Below, in pieces: positions 4,706 to 60,274 of a stretch of DNA of 64,000 nucleotides; within the stretch, counting starts at the first letter, position 1, and each line of letters opens with the position of its first letter. Both the position numbers and the translations under genes were made by a program. The notes beneath the pieces were generated by a model. That model saw only the letters and a list, made by a program, of their open reading frames with translations. It did not search any database and was not told the DNA's origin. Origin of the DNA: Clostridia bacterium (GTDB lineage: Bacteria > Bacillota > Clostridia > Christensenellales > CAG-917); assembly GCA_017618055.1 (NCBI GenBank), contig JAFZVB010000014.1, positions 327,663 through 391,662 of the forward strand. The letters are read 5' to 3'.

Positions 4706-5263
4706 ATGAAATTATATATTGCTTCAGATATTCATGGCAGTGCTGCTAATCTTGAAAGATTATTAAATACTATTGGTGCTGCATTAGACGAAGATCCTAA
4801 TATAAGAGTTGTCTTTTTAGGAGATACTTATAATCATGGACCAAGAAATCCATTCCCAGAAAGATACTCACCTATGGAAGTTGCAAGAATGCTTAATGAT
4901 GCTATGCAATTTATAACCGTTATTAAGGGAAACTGTGATAGCGAAGTTGACGAAATGATTTCTAACTTCCCTATAATCTCAGACTTCAATATGGAATGGG
5001 AAGGAGTAACCCTTTATTTCACACACGGACATAAGTTTGGACCACAAAAAGCACCAATTGGAGCTAAGGCAGGAGATGTGGTTTTCTATGGGCATACCCA
5101 CGTATTAAAGGCAGAAAATATAGATGGTATTAACTATGTTAACCCAGGTTCTATTTCTCTTCCTTTTAATAATAATCCTAGAACATATGCTGTCCTTGAA
5201 GGCAAGGAAATTCAGATTAGACAAATAGAAGATAACAAAACAATATTGACATACAATTTCTAA
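4706..5263 (+). CDS. yfcE: YfcE-type metallophosphodiesterase
   Basis: 185 residues with the calcineurin-like metal ligands in order: SDIHG (D8, H10), FLGDTYNHGP (D40), KGNCDSE (N, 70s), FTHGH and YGHTHVL. This is the MJ0936/YfcE group, which hydrolyses phosphodiesters with Mn; the physiological substrate is unsettled. The gene follows the membrane protein by 9 nt and precedes the GH2 gene by 15 nt, so these are probably cotranscribed. Confidence 0.88.
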   Translation: MKLYIASDIHGSAANLERLLNTIGAALDEDPNIRVVFLGDTYNHGPRNPFPERYSPMEVARMLNDAMQFITVIKGNCDSEVDEMISNFPIISDFNMEWEGVTLYFTHGHKFGPQKAPIGAKAGDVVFYGHTHVLKAENIDGINYVNPGSISLPFNNNPRTYAVLEGKEIQIRQIEDNKTILTYNF

Positions 5264-5278
5264 AAGAGAGGTATTATT

Positions 5279-7015
5279 ATGATTACTCGTTTACGTACAG
5301 ACTTTGAAGTTGGCGAAACACCATTAGCCGAATATCCACGTCCTCAATTCCAAAGAGATTCTTATTTCACATTAAATGGACAATGGGATTATGCCATTTA
5401 CCGCCAAAGCGAAGACTTTGCTGGATACCAAGGAAAAATCCTAGTTCCATTCTCACCTGAATCTTTACTTTCTGGTGTTAAAGAAGGAACAATGGTTATG
5501 CCAAATGATAAGCTTTATTATCATAGAACATTCACCCTTCCTATTGGTTTCAACAAGGGACATACATTCATAAACTTTGATGCTGTAGACTTTGCTTGTA
5601 CTGTAAAAGTAAACGGAGCATACGTTGGAGAACACGTTGGTGGTTATACCCCATTCAGTCTAGACGTTACCAGCGTTATTAAGGATGGAGATAATAGTAT
5701 AGACGTAGAAGTTACAGACCCATCTGATACATCTTTCCATACAAGAGCAAAACAAGCCATAAAGCATGGTGGTATCTGGTATACACCACAATCTGGTATT
5801 TGGCAAAGTGTATGGATTGAATCTGCACCTCAAACATATCTTAAAGATATGACAATAGTTCCAGATATAGATAACGGAACAGTTAATATAGACACAAAGG
5901 TTTATGGAGACGAAGAAGTTTCTGTTGTTGTATTAGACGGAGAAACTCCAATAGCAAGTGGAAATACAAAAGGTGGAAGAATTTCACTTCAAGTTCCTAA
6001 CTTTGAATGCTGGTCTCCAGAAAATCCTAAATTATACAATTTAGCACTTAAAGTTGGCACAGATTTAATTAGATCTTACTTCGGTATGAGAAAGTTCTCT
6101 ATTATGGAAGATGAAAACGGAATTAAGAGACTTGCACTTAACAACAAACCATATTTCCATAACGGACTATTGGATCAAGGTTATTGGTCTGATGGTATGC
6201 TCACACCTCCAAGTAATGCTGCACTTGAATATGATATTAAGTTAGTAAAAGAGATGGGCTTTAATATGATTAGAAAACATATTAAGATTGAACCACTCCT
6301 CTGGTACTACTACTGTGATAAATATGGCATCTTAGTATGGCAAGACTTTGTATCTGGTGGAAGAAAATATAATATGCTCGCTATAGGCGTTCTTCCATTT
6401 ATTCATATCAACATCAAGGATAACAACTACAAGTTCTATGCTAGACAAGATGAAGAAGGAAGATTGGAATATGTAAACGAAATGCATGAAACAGTACAAA
6501 GATTAAAGAACGTACCATGTCTTGCGCAATGGGTTCCATTCAACGAAGGATGGGGACAATTTGATTCCATAGAAATCACAAAACAATTAAGAGCATTAGA
6601 TAACACAAGAACAATAGACTCTGTTTCTGGTTGGGCAGATCAAGGTAAGAATTCTTCAGATTTAAAGAGCTTACACATTTACTTCAAACCAATCGTTCTT
6701 CCAAAGAGAGAAAAACGTGTTATCGTAATTAGTGAATTCGGTGGATACTCTAACCCAACAGAAGAACATATGTTCAATCCAGATAAATTATTCGGATACA
6801 GAATGTTCAAGACAAAAGATGCATTATGGGAAGCATATAAGAAATTATATGAAAATAGAATCATCCCAGGCATTGCTAAGGGTTTGAGCGCAACTGTATA
6901 TACACAAGTTAGTGACGTTGAAGAAGAAATCAATGGCCTCATTACTTATGACAGAAAGGTTGTTAAGTTCCCTGTAGACAAGATGAAAGAATTAAACGAT
7001 AGAATAAAATATTGA
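5279..7015 (+). CDS. Glycoside hydrolase family 2 (beta-galactosidase/beta-glucuronidase type)
   Basis: 578 residues, the compact GH2 form. An N-terminal sugar-binding jelly roll (FTLNGQWDYA to about residue 180, including GGYTPFSLDVT), an Ig-like domain, then a TIM barrel carrying the acid/base glutamate in WVPFNEGWGQFD and the nucleophile glutamate in ISEFGGYS. No signal peptide is seen, so it acts inside the cell on an imported oligosaccharide. Substrate (beta-galactoside, glucuronide or mannoside) cannot be assigned. AGAGGT precedes the ATG. It sits between yfcE and thyA with short gaps, an odd mix for one transcript. Confidence 0.9.
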   Translation: MITRLRTDFEVGETPLAEYPRPQFQRDSYFTLNGQWDYAIYRQSEDFAGYQGKILVPFSPESLLSGVKEGTMVMPNDKLYYHRTFTLPIGFNKGHTFINFDAVDFACTVKVNGAYVGEHVGGYTPFSLDVTSVIKDGDNSIDVEVTDPSDTSFHTRAKQAIKHGGIWYTPQSGIWQSVWIESAPQTYLKDMTIVPDIDNGTVNIDTKVYGDEEVSVVVLDGETPIASGNTKGGRISLQVPNFECWSPENPKLYNLALKVGTDLIRSYFGMRKFSIMEDENGIKRLALNNKPYFHNGLLDQGYWSDGMLTPPSNAALEYDIKLVKEMGFNMIRKHIKIEPLLWYYYCDKYGILVWQDFVSGGRKYNMLAIGVLPFIHINIKDNNYKFYARQDEEGRLEYVNEMHETVQRLKNVPCLAQWVPFNEGWGQFDSIEITKQLRALDNTRTIDSVSGWADQGKNSSDLKSLHIYFKPIVLPKREKRVIVISEFGGYSNPTEEHMFNPDKLFGYRMFKTKDALWEAYKKLYENRIIPGIAKGLSATVYTQVSDVEEEINGLITYDRKVVKFPVDKMKELNDRIKY

Positions 7016-47156: not shown

Positions 47157-47543
47157 ATGTTTGATCAAAAAGAATATATAAATGATTATATAAAAAACAA
47201 TTATAAGACAATTAAATTAAGAATTAGAAATGATAATTCTGTTATCATTGATAAACTCAATAATGTTGATAATGTTAATAAATATTTAACAGAACTAATA
47301 ATGAAAGATATATATGAAAATAGGGTTTATAATTTTATAGATGATTCTATTAAAATTGATTTTGATTTAAGTGTTGGAATGCGCGATTTAGTTGAAAAAG
47401 CAGAAAAGGCCGATTTGTTAAACGATTATGGACTATACATGAATTTGGCAGATGCTATTGATTCTCGTGCAAAAAAAGAAACAGGCCAACATATTTTAAG
47501 AGAATCTCAATGGAACAAACTAATTAAGAGGTATTGTTTATGA
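47157..47543 (+). CDS. Ribbon-helix-helix-like antitoxin
   Basis: 128 residues. Residues 12-50 (NNYKTIKLRIRNDNSVIIDKLNNVDNVNKYLTELIMKDI) fit a ribbon-helix-helix DNA-binding domain as in antitoxins of CtkA/HipA-like kinases. The remainder is charged and probably binds the kinase. Overlaps the kinase gene by 4 bp (ATGA), the usual toxin-antitoxin layout, and the operator-like repeat lies 26 bp upstream. The RHH call is by pattern; the sequence is divergent. GAGGTG precedes the ATG. Confidence 0.65.
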   Translation: MFDQKEYINDYIKNNYKTIKLRIRNDNSVIIDKLNNVDNVNKYLTELIMKDIYENRVYNFIDDSIKIDFDLSVGMRDLVEKAEKADLLNDYGLYMNLADAIDSRAKKETGQHILRESQWNKLIKRYCL

Positions 47544-48493
47544 CAGATATAATAGATTTTACAAATTGTGGATTAAGCCCAAGAAATCTAGAATATGGCG
47601 GAAGAGCCGGAGAAAAGAAAGGAATAATATACAATAATAATTTCTGGATTTTAAAATTTCCTAAAAACACATCAGCCATGCAAAATACTAAAGGACTCTC
47701 TTATGTAACATCACCCTTAAGTGAATACATAGGAAGCAACATTTATAAACTATTAGGATATGATGCCCACGAAACTATTCTTGGCATATATAATGATGGA
47801 AGAAAAAATAAAGTGGTTTGTGCATGTAAGGACTTTATTAACAATGATAAAAATGAGTTGCTCATTCCTTATACTGCACTTAGAAACGACACTAATCCAA
47901 TAATTATGGAAGACAAATCAGATTCACCTTTTACCGCATCGAACATTAATGAGATTATTTTCCAGTTAGAACATAATACAGTTTTAAGTCAAATACCATT
48001 TGCTAAACAAAGATTTTGGGATGTAGTAATAATTGATATGTTAATCAACAACAATGATAGAAATGAAGATAATTGGGGTGTAATAAAATTTAAAAATACT
48101 AACACATACAATATGTCCCCTATTTATGATTGTGGTAATTGTTTCTATTCTAAAGCTACAGAAGAAAGGATAAGCAGTATAATGGCTGACAAAGAAAAAT
48201 TGGAAAGCAGTGCAACTAATGGAATAACAGCATATGAAAATGATGATGGCACACAAATAAGAAATGACCAGATATTAAATCTTGACAACTTAGATTTAAA
48301 TGCTTCAATAAAGCGTGTTTTTGAGCGAGTGGTGCATATCCTTCCTGATATAGAAGATTTTATAAATAATATTTCAGAATCATATAAGGATATATCTATT
48401 ATTTCACCTCTAAGAAAAGAATACTATATAACGACTTTCAAGATTAGACTTGAAAAAATACTTAAGCCAAAATATGAATTATTATTAAAATAA
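47540..48493 (+). CDS. HipA/CtkA-like serine/threonine kinase toxin
   Basis: 317 residues from the ATG at 47540, in ATGA overlap with the antitoxin; a TTG at 47534 is a weaker alternative. ATP-binding FWILKFPKN (Lys39), helix SEYIGSNIYKLLGYDAHETILG, hinge-like VVCACKDF, catalytic loop INNNDRNEDNWG (residues 170-180) and metal site PIYDCGN (194-200) are all intact, in contrast with the gene at 8508. HipA-type kinases phosphorylate translation factors such as glutamyl-tRNA synthetase and halt growth; the target here is unknown. Confidence 0.82.
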   Translation: MTDIIDFTNCGLSPRNLEYGGRAGEKKGIIYNNNFWILKFPKNTSAMQNTKGLSYVTSPLSEYIGSNIYKLLGYDAHETILGIYNDGRKNKVVCACKDFINNDKNELLIPYTALRNDTNPIIMEDKSDSPFTASNINEIIFQLEHNTVLSQIPFAKQRFWDVVIIDMLINNNDRNEDNWGVIKFKNTNTYNMSPIYDCGNCFYSKATEERISSIMADKEKLESSATNGITAYENDDGTQIRNDQILNLDNLDLNASIKRVFERVVHILPDIEDFINNISESYKDISIISPLRKEYYITTFKIRLEKILKPKYELLLK

Positions 48494-52242: not shown

Positions 52243-52271
52243 TAGACACAAGGTATCTGTATCCATATAAT
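52243..52271 (+). promoter_or_regulatory. Sigma-A promoter of the RT locus
   Basis: TAGACA (52243-52248), 17-nt spacer, TATAAT (52266-52271). The leader is about 27 nt with AAAAGGA as ribosome-binding site before the ATG at 52305. Confidence 0.75.
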
Positions 52272-52304: not shown

Positions 52305-53381
52305 ATGAAACTCAGTATTAACGCAAATTACATTCCAGAAGAGCAAACTTCTTTAAGTCCAAACACATGTTATTATCTGTATATGACAGATGGAACCCAA
52401 AAGGAACTCAAAGAAATGCAACCAAGACACGAATATCTCATTGATAAGAGAAAAAATGACTTTTCTTCATTTTTAAAGGTTATCCTTTTGAACACATATT
52501 TATATGTAACAAATACTGAAGTTGAGCTAATTAGTGATATAGCTAAGACATTAGAAAAAGAATACTATAAAGACCTAGATAAAGACTTTATCGAGAAAAT
52601 AGTTAAAAGTGGTAAAGAGCAAGATTTTATAAAAGAAATCATTAGAACTAGATTATTGAAAACAACTGCGCTTTCCGAAGACTCTGATGATGCAAAGAAT
52701 AAACTTAAAAAAGTCCAATTTAGATTGGCACAAGATGATGATTTGTTAAGATACATTTTTGCAGGAAGTGTTTGTATGTCTATTTCAGAGTATTTAACAT
52801 CTCTCTTAAACTATTTTATGTCTGCATCTTCTTCAACTCAGAAGACAATCTTAACTTATCAAAATACACTCATGTTGAAACGTTGTATCGCAGATCACAG
52901 ATGCATATTCATTAACAATAGAAAATGCCTTCCACTAAAAACAGCAAAAATTGGAAGAACTATGACAAGAGATATATTCGTATATATAGATATGACACAA
53001 AAAAGAATTAGATTTAGACATTTTAGTGAAAGAGATAAATATGAGGAATCAAATGAGTACTTCCAATTAAACTCAGACGAACAAAAGTTGCTTGATGCAG
53101 TATGCGATTATGTAGATAATCAAAAATGGGTTACTTTCTCATTTGATGTAATCAATACAGGTGAACTTCCAGAAATACTTAAAATTATTGCAAAAGAATA
53201 CATTAATGAAGATGGCACCATTACAAAAAGAGTTACTTATACAGCAATGTATCTCTCTGACTTAAACTATACATATGAGCAACTTATCAAAATAAATGGA
53301 GTAAATATTAAAAATTTAGAATATTCTGAAAAAATAGATGAATTATTTAAACTTTTAAAAGAAACCAAATATTCATTCTAA
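52305..53381 (+). CDS. Orphan protein encoded upstream of a reverse transcriptase
   Basis: 358 residues, charged, with no signal peptide or membrane helix and no domain I recognise. A predicted mainly helical N-terminal half is followed by a segment with several Cys and basic residues (RCIADHRCIFINNRKCLPL, about residues 200-218), then a beta-rich C-terminal half. No polymerase, nuclease or helicase motif is visible, and it does not show the YxDD motif of a second reverse transcriptase. Its own promoter drives it, and the RT gene lies 149 nt downstream on the same strand, so the two are probably one unit. Possibly an effector or partner of the RT; this is inferred from position only. Confidence 0.7.
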   Translation: MKLSINANYIPEEQTSLSPNTCYYLYMTDGTQKELKEMQPRHEYLIDKRKNDFSSFLKVILLNTYLYVTNTEVELISDIAKTLEKEYYKDLDKDFIEKIVKSGKEQDFIKEIIRTRLLKTTALSEDSDDAKNKLKKVQFRLAQDDDLLRYIFAGSVCMSISEYLTSLLNYFMSASSSTQKTILTYQNTLMLKRCIADHRCIFINNRKCLPLKTAKIGRTMTRDIFVYIDMTQKRIRFRHFSERDKYEESNEYFQLNSDEQKLLDAVCDYVDNQKWVTFSFDVINTGELPEILKIIAKEYINEDGTITKRVTYTAMYLSDLNYTYEQLIKINGVNIKNLEYSEKIDELFKLLKETKYSF

Positions 53382-53388
53382 CTCTCTA

Positions 53389-53507
53389 GAAGGAGGAGAT
53401 TAAATGCAACAAAGGTAGATGCGTTCTATTATCTTTAAGGTTTAGTTGCAGGCCATAGATCGTTTATACCAGTCTAATTATATTATGAATTCTTTTTCTC
53501 CTCCTTC
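53389..53507 (+). ncRNA. Candidate structured RNA between the orphan gene and the reverse transcriptase
   Basis: GAAGGAGGAGA (53389-53399) and TCTCCTCCTTC (53497-53507) are perfectly complementary over 11 bp and enclose 97 nt. Inside, TGCAAC (53405-53410) pairs with GTTGCA (53445-53450). The closed segment begins 8 nt after the orphan stop and ends 23 nt before the RT start. A flanking inverted repeat next to an RT is the plan of retron and other RT-associated RNAs, but retron marks were not seen. The 5' arm also contains a perfect AAGGAGG ribosome-binding site before an ATG (53404) that opens a 4-codon frame ending at 53418, so a translation attenuator is an alternative. Confidence 0.45.
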
Positions 53508-53530
53508 CTTCTTCTTTTTGAGGTATTAAT

Positions 53531-54733
53531 ATGGGTAAAATTATTAATTATTTGACAGATGAAAACAAATGGAATCAATACTATAACTTCCTTCAAGAAA
53601 AGAAACAATTCAAGAAGGATGAGATTGATTCTGTAAAAAAGATTTTAGATGACAAAAAATATGTATTTTTTACGTTTGATTATATCCTCGAATTAATAGA
53701 TCGTTCTTACCTTATGGTTAATAGAGTTCCTAAATTCAACTCTAAAGAGAAAAGAATTGTTTTTACAACAAACGATACTTTAGATATCATTTTGAAGTTC
53801 TTAACCTTCTGTTTGCGAGATTATGACTATCTTTACTCAGACAATGTTTATTCATATAGACATTCAAATAGTATCCAAGATGCAATATCTAAAATTAAGA
53901 ATAATTTACATGAAGACACATATACTCTCAAGTTGGATTTGCACTCATATTTTAATAGCATGGATAAAGCAAAATTGCTTAGATGTATTAAAAAATCTTT
54001 TAATGAAACAGATAGTGATTTCGTAGAATTTAATGAACATCTTTTGTACATAAAAACAAACGAAGAAATATATTCTGGAGGATTACCTGGACTTGCTATT
54101 TCCTGTTTCTATGCAAACATCTATCTCAAAGAATTGGATGATATCATTGCATCAAAAGGATTCACATATTGCAGATATTCAGATGACTTGTTGATTATGG
54201 GTAAAAAGGACGAACTCCTTGCCTTTGAACAATTCTTGTATGATTATATTTATTCCGTTGGCCTCACAGTTAACGAAGACAAAAGACATATGTATACTCC
54301 AAATGAAACTATTGAATTTTTAGGCTTTAATATTAACTCCAGCACGGATGTAGACATCTCAGATTCAGCATTTAGAAAAATCAAGGCAAAGATCCATCGT
54401 TCCTCCAAACATCTCAAAGAACAAATCTCACAAGGTTATATTACAAGAGATGAAGCCATTCAAAGACTCATCAATAAATACAACAAGAAATTCTTTTCTT
54501 TGGCATATGGAGAAATTAATTGGTCTTTGTGGTATTTCCCAGTTATCTCTAATACAACTACATTAAAAAAGATAGATAATTACTTCCAAGATGAAGTAAG
54601 AGCCTTGTATACATTGCATTACAACAAAAAGAATAAAGAAAAAGTCCCATACTCATTGCTCAAGCAATATGGATACAGGACTTTGGTTAACGCATATTAT
54701 AGCCCTAAAAACAAAGAAAAGAAATGTTCATAA
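53531..54733 (+). CDS. Reverse transcriptase of an unassigned bacterial lineage
   Basis: 400 residues. Fingers region VPKFNSKEKRIVFTTND and NVYSYRHSNSIQDAI, motif A LKLDLHSYFNSMD (Asp136), motif B GGLPGLAISCFYANIYLKELD (183-203), catalytic YSDD (216-219) and motif D FLGFNI (263-268). The C-terminal region has a conserved-looking NWSLWYFPVIS (330-340) and YGYRTLVNAYY. Motif B lacks the PQG of group II introns and retrons, and there is no maturase or endonuclease domain, so it is not an intron. It fits the stand-alone unknown-group RTs, several of which are antiphage (DRT) systems. GAGGT before the ATG. Confidence 0.88.
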   Translation: MGKIINYLTDENKWNQYYNFLQEKKQFKKDEIDSVKKILDDKKYVFFTFDYILELIDRSYLMVNRVPKFNSKEKRIVFTTNDTLDIILKFLTFCLRDYDYLYSDNVYSYRHSNSIQDAISKIKNNLHEDTYTLKLDLHSYFNSMDKAKLLRCIKKSFNETDSDFVEFNEHLLYIKTNEEIYSGGLPGLAISCFYANIYLKELDDIIASKGFTYCRYSDDLLIMGKKDELLAFEQFLYDYIYSVGLTVNEDKRHMYTPNETIEFLGFNINSSTDVDISDSAFRKIKAKIHRSSKHLKEQISQGYITRDEAIQRLINKYNKKFFSLAYGEINWSLWYFPVISNTTTLKKIDNYFQDEVRALYTLHYNKKNKEKVPYSLLKQYGYRTLVNAYYSPKNKEKKCS

Positions 54734-55144
54734 CCCTAACAATTCATCAACATCTGTTGGAAAATCAAACTTTTCTGAATCTATATAGAATGTTACATCG
54801 TCTTCAATAATAATTTTGCCTTCTTTATCAAATTTAAAGCCATTATTCTCAATCATATTCTCTATGAAAAAACTATGAAATATAGATGTCGCTTCATAAT
54901 AGCCATCACAAAGGCAATTTCCATCATTGTCCCAACCTTGCTTTCCAAATCTACCAAATGTTGCAAAGAATAAACATAGTTCTTTACTAACTTTTTCTTG
55001 TTCCCACTCCTTTTTAATAATTTTAAAGGTTTCAACCATTAACTGTTTATACTTCTTTAAATCTTTTGAATCCATGTCTTCTTTTTCATCAACATAATCA
55101 ATGAAATTATCCCACTTTTCATTTAAATTCATTATTTCTGTCAT
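54728..55144 (-). CDS. Hypothetical acidic protein convergent with the RT
   Basis: 138 residues from the ATG at 55144, chosen because GGGAG lies 5 nt upstream; a start at 55156 is also possible. Helical, acidic sequence (NLNEKWDNFIDYVDEKEDMDSKDLKKYKQLMVETFKII) with a Trp/Gly-rich middle (FGRFGKQGWDNDGNC). No known motif, no signal peptide. Its 3' end overlaps the RT gene by 6 bp, tail to tail. It may belong to the RT neighbourhood but runs in the opposite direction. Confidence 0.65.
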   Translation of the reverse strand: MTEIMNLNEKWDNFIDYVDEKEDMDSKDLKKYKQLMVETFKIIKKEWEQEKVSKELCLFFATFGRFGKQGWDNDGNCLCDGYYEATSIFHSFFIENMIENNGFKFDKEGKIIIEDDVTFYIDSEKFDFPTDVDELLGL

Positions 55145-55169
55145 ATTTTCTCCCAATATTTATAAATAA

Positions 55170-59511: not shown

Positions 59512-60141
59512 TTATTGGTTTTCCTCTGTTTGAGGTGGTATTTCTTCCTTCCTTTTTCTTTTAAAAGAAAAGATCTCGTCTTGTATCCCTCTAACATACT
59601 TAATCCTTAATAGTGCTATGGTTAATAAATATCCCACAACTACAGATACAGATGCTTGTATGGAATCATTTGGAATATTTAAAAGTGCTGTTGCAAATCC
59701 AGATATAAACTCTCCTTCGTTTATTACGCCAAGCATTAATCCTGTTCCCACATAATATCCAAGCATCATCCAGAGACCAGAAACTATGAAGGCAATAACA
59801 AAAGAGACAAAATCTTTAACTTTTTCTTGCTTTGCATATTTTTTAAATATCCAAACAATAGTACCGCAAAGTATTCCCTCTATTCCTTTTACTACAAAAG
59901 TTAAAAGAGCAAAAGTTGGAGCATATACAATGTCTGCAAGAGCACTTCCAACACCACCACAGATAAATCCTCCAAGTGGTCCTAAAATACTAGATGCAAC
60001 AAATATTACTACATCTCCAAAATTTAAATATGCTCCCACACCAGTTGGCATAGGAATAACTACAATAATTGTGGCTACAAATACGAGTGCTATAAAAACG
60101 GCAAGGTATGCAATATACCTTAATGCAAAATTTCTTTTCAT
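59512..60141 (-). CDS. ribU: ECF transporter S component for riboflavin (RibU-like)
   Basis: 209 residues with six hydrophobic segments. IAYLAVFIALVFVATIIVVIPMPTGVGAYLNFGDVVIFVASSILGPLGGFICGGVGSALADIV has the pattern of ECF S components that bind a vitamin and use a shared energising module; the module genes are not in the window. Substrate is inferred from the FMN riboswitch that controls the gene, since riboswitch-linked S components take up riboflavin. The C-terminus (KRKRKEEIPPQTEEN) is a charged cytoplasmic tail. Confidence 0.85.
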   Translation of the reverse strand: MKRNFALRYIAYLAVFIALVFVATIIVVIPMPTGVGAYLNFGDVVIFVASSILGPLGGFICGGVGSALADIVYAPTFALLTFVVKGIEGILCGTIVWIFKKYAKQEKVKDFVSFVIAFIVSGLWMMLGYYVGTGLMLGVINEGEFISGFATALLNIPNDSIQASVSVVVGYLLTIALLRIKYVRGIQDEIFSFKRKRKEEIPPQTEENQ

Positions 60142-60264
60142 ATCTCTCCCATTCAGACTTTACTGTCGGTTTTGGAATCGCACCAAATCAGCTGCTGAGA
60201 CTGTTGGACTCGTCCGTATAATACGGCATTACCACCGGTCTGGAATTTCACCATGCCCAGAGTT
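60142..60264 (-). promoter_or_regulatory. FMN riboswitch controlling ribU
   Basis: On the minus strand the leader contains the hallmark blocks of the RFN element: GGGCATGGTGAAATTCC, then ACCGGTGGT, an inserted variable arm, and GCGATTCCAAAACCGACAGT followed by AAAGTCTGAATGGGAGAGAT. The closing helix P1 pairs CTCT (60262-60259) with AGAG (60143-60146), which lies directly before the ATG (60141). The Shine-Dalgarno GGGAGA is therefore part of the riboswitch, and FMN binding should block translation. Confidence 0.93.
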
Positions 60265-60274
60265 TTTTTTCTTG

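Follow-up and report, generated by a model that had tools for sequence, protein, structure and literature searches.

A covarying pseudoknotted RNA upstream of UG26 reverse transcriptases, with a shortened member in a Clostridia bacterium

Introduction

Why does the short gap in front of a reverse transcriptase (RT) gene carry two perfectly complementary arms, one of which reads like a ribosome-binding site? The whole stretch of DNA analysed here, 64 kb from a Clostridia bacterium, is called the window. In it an 11-bp inverted repeat, GAAGGAGGAGA at 53389-53399 and TCTCCTCCTTC at 53497-53507, sits in the 149-nt gap that leads from a 358-aa gene (52305-53381) to the RT gene (53531-54733). The arms are perfect complements and the repeat is not extendable. 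A preliminary description of this segment had offered two readings, either an ncRNA template with ends like the a1/a2 of retrons or a short attenuator that masks a ribosome site. The letters on which it was built are all present, namely the repeat itself, AAGGAGG at 53390-53396, an ATG at 53404 that opens a 4-codon frame (ATG CAA CAA AGG TAG, 53404-53418), and TGCAAC at 53405-53410 with its complement GTTGCA at 53445-53450.

Results and discussion

Statistics of the inverted repeat

Shuffles of the 64 kb gave a mean of 3.4 perfect 11-bp repeats with a spacer of 40-150 nt and the window contains one, so that the bare repeat is unremarkable at this scale. Dinucleotide shuffles of the 149-nt gap alone produced such an 11-bp repeat in only 4 cases out of 2000. 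The segment has a predicted folding energy of -30.8 kcal/mol (z = -2.4), and 3 of 200 shuffles were equally stable. Searching Rfam assigned the segment to no family, the only gathering-level matches in the window being FMN and tRNA. The former is an FMN riboswitch (RF00050, 89 bits) on the - strand at 60137-60269, upstream of a same-strand 209-aa ORF resembling a membrane protein. We consider that the decisive evidence for an RNA at this place is comparative, from aligned relatives, and not the statistics of the repeat.

A divergent reverse transcriptase of the UG26 group

The genes and the ribosome-binding site around the repeat are as follows.

52305-53381, + strand: 358-aa neighbour gene of no known family, same strand as the RT and possibly in the same transcript
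53520-53523, + strand: GAGG, likely ribosome-binding site of the RT, 7 nt before ATG 53531 and outside the inverted repeat
53531-54733, + strand: reverse transcriptase, UG26 group, with YSDD active site (PADLOC RT_UG26; Pfam RVT_1)

The best PADLOC model for the RT is RT_UG26 (310 bits, E 4.6e-93), RT residues 3-394 aligning to positions 2-397 of the 398 in the profile. The runner-up is RT_UG17, the RT of DRT10, at 102 bits, and the DRT9 and DRT2 models give 66 and 56 bits. The active site RYSDD is intact, and it is invariant in the RT alignment (A1). UG26 is likewise the best-scoring model for five diverse relatives, at 459-562 bits compared with 310 for the window RT. The latter is divergent: it shares 34% identity with the closest of 84 relatives and sits on a branch much longer than the rest.

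These scores bear directly on the first reading. Retron ncRNAs are likewise RT-linked RNAs closed by complementary ends, and long complementary ends on an RNA that precedes an RT gene could point to an msr-msd RNA with a1/a2 ends. This is extremely improbable here. The best retron RT model reaches 72 bits against 310 for UG26, and a retron identity was rejected on this ground; the VTG motif of retron RTs is absent from the translated RT, and the consensus RNA described below contains a pseudoknot but lacks a long msd hairpin. Retron ncRNAs thus differ from the window in RT group, overall fold and motifs. The idea of a1/a2-like ends is abandoned, TGCAAC/GTTGCA corresponding in position to a pseudoknot strand and not to an msr/msd stem.

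Single-protein scans of viral contigs returned no RT relatives, and scanning these contigs with the RT alignment gave two weak matches (24-25% over about 160 residues). Plasmid and phage collections contained distant RTs only, where annotated mostly of the group II intron or retron type. A UG26-like RT was also seen at 4995-6299 of a contig labelled Candidatus Methanomethylophilus, an archaeon (L010); the RNA model has no match upstream of it.

A covarying RNA upstream of UG26 genes

Scanning genome contigs with the RT alignment yielded 80 loci, mostly from gut and rumen Bacteroidota and Bacillota, to which four further loci from the window's own order were added. UG26 RTs occur widely among bacteria of the gut and rumen. 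In 56 loci a gene of one small-protein family precedes the RT, and an RNA whose conservation is obvious occupies the gap, which is often about 150 nt long. A mechanical search located closing stems by their complementary arms, purine-rich on the 5' side and pyrimidine-rich on the 3' side (e.g. GAAAAAGGGGA/TCCCCTTTTTC or AAAGAGAA/TTCTCTTT), and the RNAs of 65 relatives were aligned, the window being left out. RNAalifold proposed 30 pairs, with changes on both sides in 26 of them. The consensus fold is made up of the purine/pyrimidine closing stem, one hairpin and a long helix that carries an inner hairpin, together with a pseudoknot. Once the pseudoknot and the 3' hairpin are included, the model has 41 pairs in 7 helices, 90.1% of cells are paired, and both-side changes occur in 38 of the 41 pairs. 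Cells with double changes number 499 versus 147 in column shuffles, and slid controls have 45-49% of cells paired.

The preliminary description had staked the folded RNA on covariation of the two arms in homologues, and the arms do covary. The closing stem (helix 1) has 89.6% of its cells paired and both-side changes in 7 of its 8 pairs, values that are partly built in because the locating step sought complementary purine-rich arms. The inner helices and the pseudoknot, which were not used for locating, covary as strongly as the closing stem. For the pseudoknot of the relatives, GCCUGC/GCAGGC, 99.5% of cells are paired and all 6 pairs have changed on both sides; in the same 65-RNA alignment the inner hairpin (helix 6) is 95% paired and the 3' hairpin (helix 7) 66%. 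Between the 3' hairpin and the 3' arm, 47 of the 65 relatives carry TTCAAA, a highly conserved unpaired stretch. In all 78 loci matched by the covariance model R1 (see below) the RNA lies upstream of the RT and on the same strand, at a distance of 6-485 nt (median 17 nt). The alignments thus establish, at the level of predicted structure, a conserved, covarying and pseudoknotted RNA that immediately precedes UG26 RTs in both Bacteroidota and Bacillota.

Covariance model R1 was built from 65 other UG26 loci with the window held out. On the 64-kb window the best of its three matches is 53386-53510, full length (1-141), with 31.5 bits and E 0.0011, and the second best has 15.9 bits. Run unfiltered on the 4.2-kb locus, R1 gives 31.4 bits (E 7.5e-5), with a runner-up at 10.7 bits. 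Over all 859 kb together, the window has E 0.015 and 78 of the 84 relatives are matched; 12 loci outside the training set are also matched (47-109 bits). The score of the window is well under the 47-135 bits of full-length relatives. In a whole-genome search with R1, for which 150 were scored of 663 candidates kept at first look, the window segment was not listed. That the repeat arose by chance in a gap biased towards purines and pyrimidines, as the number expected per 64-kb shuffle would allow, is hardly credible, since it coincides exactly with a model made from other loci, at the expected place and on the expected strand.

The predicted RNA of the window

The predicted parts of the RNA are listed below.

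53386-53510, + strand: UG26-type ncRNA, predicted extent (full-length match of R1)
53389-53399, + strand: closing stem, 5' arm GAAGGAGGAGA, perfect complement of 53497-53507; helix 1 covaries in relatives
53405-53410, + strand: pseudoknot strand 1, TGCAAC, at the position of the relatives' GCCUGC
53414-53417, + strand: helix 4, 5' strand GGTA, pairing with TACC 53467-53470 (CM alignment and minimum-energy fold)
53421-53429, + strand: helix 5, 5' strand GCG-t-TCTAT, pairing with 53455-53463 (CM alignment and minimum-energy fold)
53439-53454, + strand: inner hairpin (helix 6), GGTT/GGCC, with a pseudoknot strand in its loop (minimum-energy fold; consensus helix 6)
53445-53450, + strand: pseudoknot strand 2, GTTGCA, in the loop of the inner hairpin, complement of 53405-53410 at the consensus position
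53455-53463, + strand: helix 5, 3' strand ATAGA-t-CGT (CM alignment and minimum-energy fold)
53467-53470, + strand: helix 4, 3' strand TACC (CM alignment and minimum-energy fold)
53475-53485, + strand: weak 3' hairpin TAAT-TAT-ATTA (minimum-energy fold), counterpart of the relatives' 3' hairpin (helix 7)
53486-53496, + strand: unpaired junction before the 3' arm, GAATTCTTTTT, candidate template; relatives have TTCAAA; analogy with DRT3/9/10 (PMC13174585, PMC12632851)
53497-53507, + strand: closing stem, 3' arm TCTCCTCCTTC, perfect complement of 53389-53399; helix 1 covaries

In the alignment to the covariance model (CM) the window forms 8 of 8 consensus pairs of the closing stem, 4 of 4 of helix 4 and 8 of 9 of helix 5. 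The unconstrained minimum-energy fold contains the closing stem, helices 4, 5 and 6 and the weak 3' hairpin; the letters of helix 6 are placed otherwise by the CM alignment than by this fold. TGCAAC/GTTGCA makes 6 of 6 pairs at the expected places, although alone it has p of about 0.08 against shuffles, and it is likely to be a real pairing, the window's counterpart of the relatives' pseudoknot. The first small hairpin after the 5' arm is absent from the window in the CM alignment; we treat it as optional because it is reduced in several relatives too. The comparison identifies the predicted RNA of the window as a shortened, divergent member of the UG26-linked RNA fold.

The likeness to a ribosome-binding site

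AAGGAGG precedes ATG 53404 by 7 nt, and the closing stem would pair it completely. This had suggested a translational switch, in which the folded leader hides AAGGAGG and thereby controls how much leader peptide or RT is made. The relatives make such a switch highly improbable: a Shine-Dalgarno-like word occurs in the 5' arm of 7 of the 65 and is properly spaced before a start codon in 4, the reading frames that open at an ATG there differ in length without a shared value, and the distance from RNA to RT varies from 6 to 485 nt. In the window, moreover, the GAGG that probably serves the RT lies outside the structure and the repeat. An AAGGAGG-like word appears because one arm of the closing stem is always purine-rich, and the resemblance of AAGGAGG/CCTCCTT to a ribosome site is probably a coincidence of that arm and its complement.

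A riboswitch- or attenuator-like leader could also act in cis on RT expression while being neither bound nor copied by the RT. A location immediately ahead of the RT and on its strand would suit it, as would the T-rich stretch after the 3' arm. No intrinsic terminator was found and an alternative anti-terminator pairing is not evident; the RNA stands at widely varying distances from the RT, and among studied RT groups the closest ones take their cis-encoded RNAs as templates (PMC12632851, PMC13174585). We regard such a leader as very unlikely. Of the two readings offered at the outset, the folded ncRNA associated with the RT survives, the arms forming its closing stem and TGCAAC/GTTGCA probably pairing within it. 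The switch or attenuator and the retron ends are not supported.

Neighbouring genes and accessory proteins

The window carries, in this order, the RT, a 142-aa gene and an FAD oxidoreductase. The 142-aa ORF (54728-55156, - strand) overlaps the RT stop by 6 nt, has no family match and belongs to the block that is absent from a genome of the same genus, G002. Among the 200 relatives searched, a homologue of the 358-aa protein was found only in G002 (48% identity over 287 residues), where the same FAD oxidoreductase follows it directly, with no intervening RT; a UG26 RT was not found in G002. The RNA-RT unit therefore came or went as one block, and the 358-aa protein can also occur where this unit is absent, for which reason the 358-aa gene was rejected as an obligate partner of the RT. 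The 358-aa gene may be co-transcribed with the RNA and RT, since an 11/12 promoter match precedes it at 52243-52271 and the search for a terminator ahead of the RNA found none. Structure prediction of its product from two sequences was uninformative (pLDDT 35).

The accessory small protein of the relatives matches PADLOC RTasCOG2852. UG26 systems with this protein (PADLOC-DB PDLC03764, PDLC03793) have the same RT group and the same upstream RNA fold as the window. They differ in that an RTasCOG2852-like gene is found in 61 of the 85 loci compared and not at the window; nor was one found in the window's genome, in a search without positive control. A Foldseek search with the predicted structure of RTasCOG2852 gave nothing below E 0.1, and a second-look alignment with restriction-endonuclease-like folds gave Z 8.5 for Vsr and Z 9.2 for NGO0050. 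In L047 (4344-4844) and about 60 other loci, RTasCOG2852 with this restriction-endonuclease-like predicted fold has very few invariant residues. About 5 kb from the RT of the window, at 47157-48493, a 128-aa ORF is followed by a HipA_C-like protein that corresponds to the PADLOC candidate PDC-M03A (E 4e-24), a possible further defence or toxin-antitoxin pair.

Comparison with known systems and proposed role

The RTs of Class 2 DRTs (DRT2, 3, 9 and 10) bind an RNA encoded in cis, a defined part of which they copy over and over (PMC12632851, PMC12483538, PMC13174585). The closest characterised RT by profile score is that of DRT10, which consists of a UG17 RT, a SLATT protein and an ncRNA (PMC12632851). 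This ncRNA has 137 nt, is cis-encoded and forms a large stem with inner stem-loops (Class 2; PMC12632851), and the RNA of the window is of similar size. The two differ in the RT (UG17, 102 bits, versus UG26, 310 bits), in the place of the RNA, before the SLATT gene in DRT10 and directly before the RT in the window, and in the A-B-A' repeats of DRT10, which are not above chance in the candidate template loops. The SLATT family is absent from the window's neighbouring genes tested by Pfam or PADLOC. DRT9 (UG28) and DRT2 (PMC12483538) also join an RT to one neighbouring structured RNA, which is scaffold and template in both; UG26 relatives differ in having no conserved U-rich template, but TTCAAA.

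By analogy with these systems, the RNA is most likely an RT-bound template or scaffold of a Class-2-type DRT. Our explanation, which we hold to be very probable, is that the arms of the inverted repeat close a ncRNA of about 120 nt that belongs to the UG26 RT, and that would be bound by it and copied in part into DNA, in the service of anti-phage defence. The RNA would come from a transcript shared with the RT, fold, and then be bound by it. Part of the unpaired loop, probably from the 3' hairpin to the 3' arm, would be copied repeatedly into DNA, and the DNA product would trigger or execute the defence, as in Class 2 DRT2, DRT3, DRT9 and DRT10.

The TTCAAA stretch between the 3' hairpin and the 3' arm, being highly conserved and unpaired, is our first candidate template. 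With this position assumed, a 3-mer A-B-A' repeat was present in 12 of the 43 unique candidate loops, shuffles giving 10.2 +/- 2.3. An earlier test on a longer segment had given 55 of 65 versus 46.7 (5 of 500 shuffles); this slight enrichment is discounted because the segment reached into the 3' arm and because it is gone in the loop alone. A DRT10-type repeat is thus not supported, being no more frequent than by chance once the test was limited to the loop and to unique sequences. One could further imagine that UG26 is an unstudied DRT type with a pseudoknotted RNA of its own, whose template is neither a homopolymer, as in DRT9, nor based on A-B-A' realignment, as in DRT10, and that in the divergent branch of the window the 358-aa protein has replaced the nuclease-fold accessory as a new effector, but we find this combination unlikely. 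DRT10 has been proposed to be related to telomerase. We found no paper on a UG26 RNA in the literature searched; an earlier mention is possible in Mestre 2022, reportedly a survey of UG/Abi RTs.

From part of a dedicated RNA, the Class 2 DRTs investigated to date produce unusual, repetitive DNA. With the place and predicted fold of the RNA and a working covariance model in hand, the template of UG26 can be tested directly, and the window illustrates how far the RNA fold can be trimmed.
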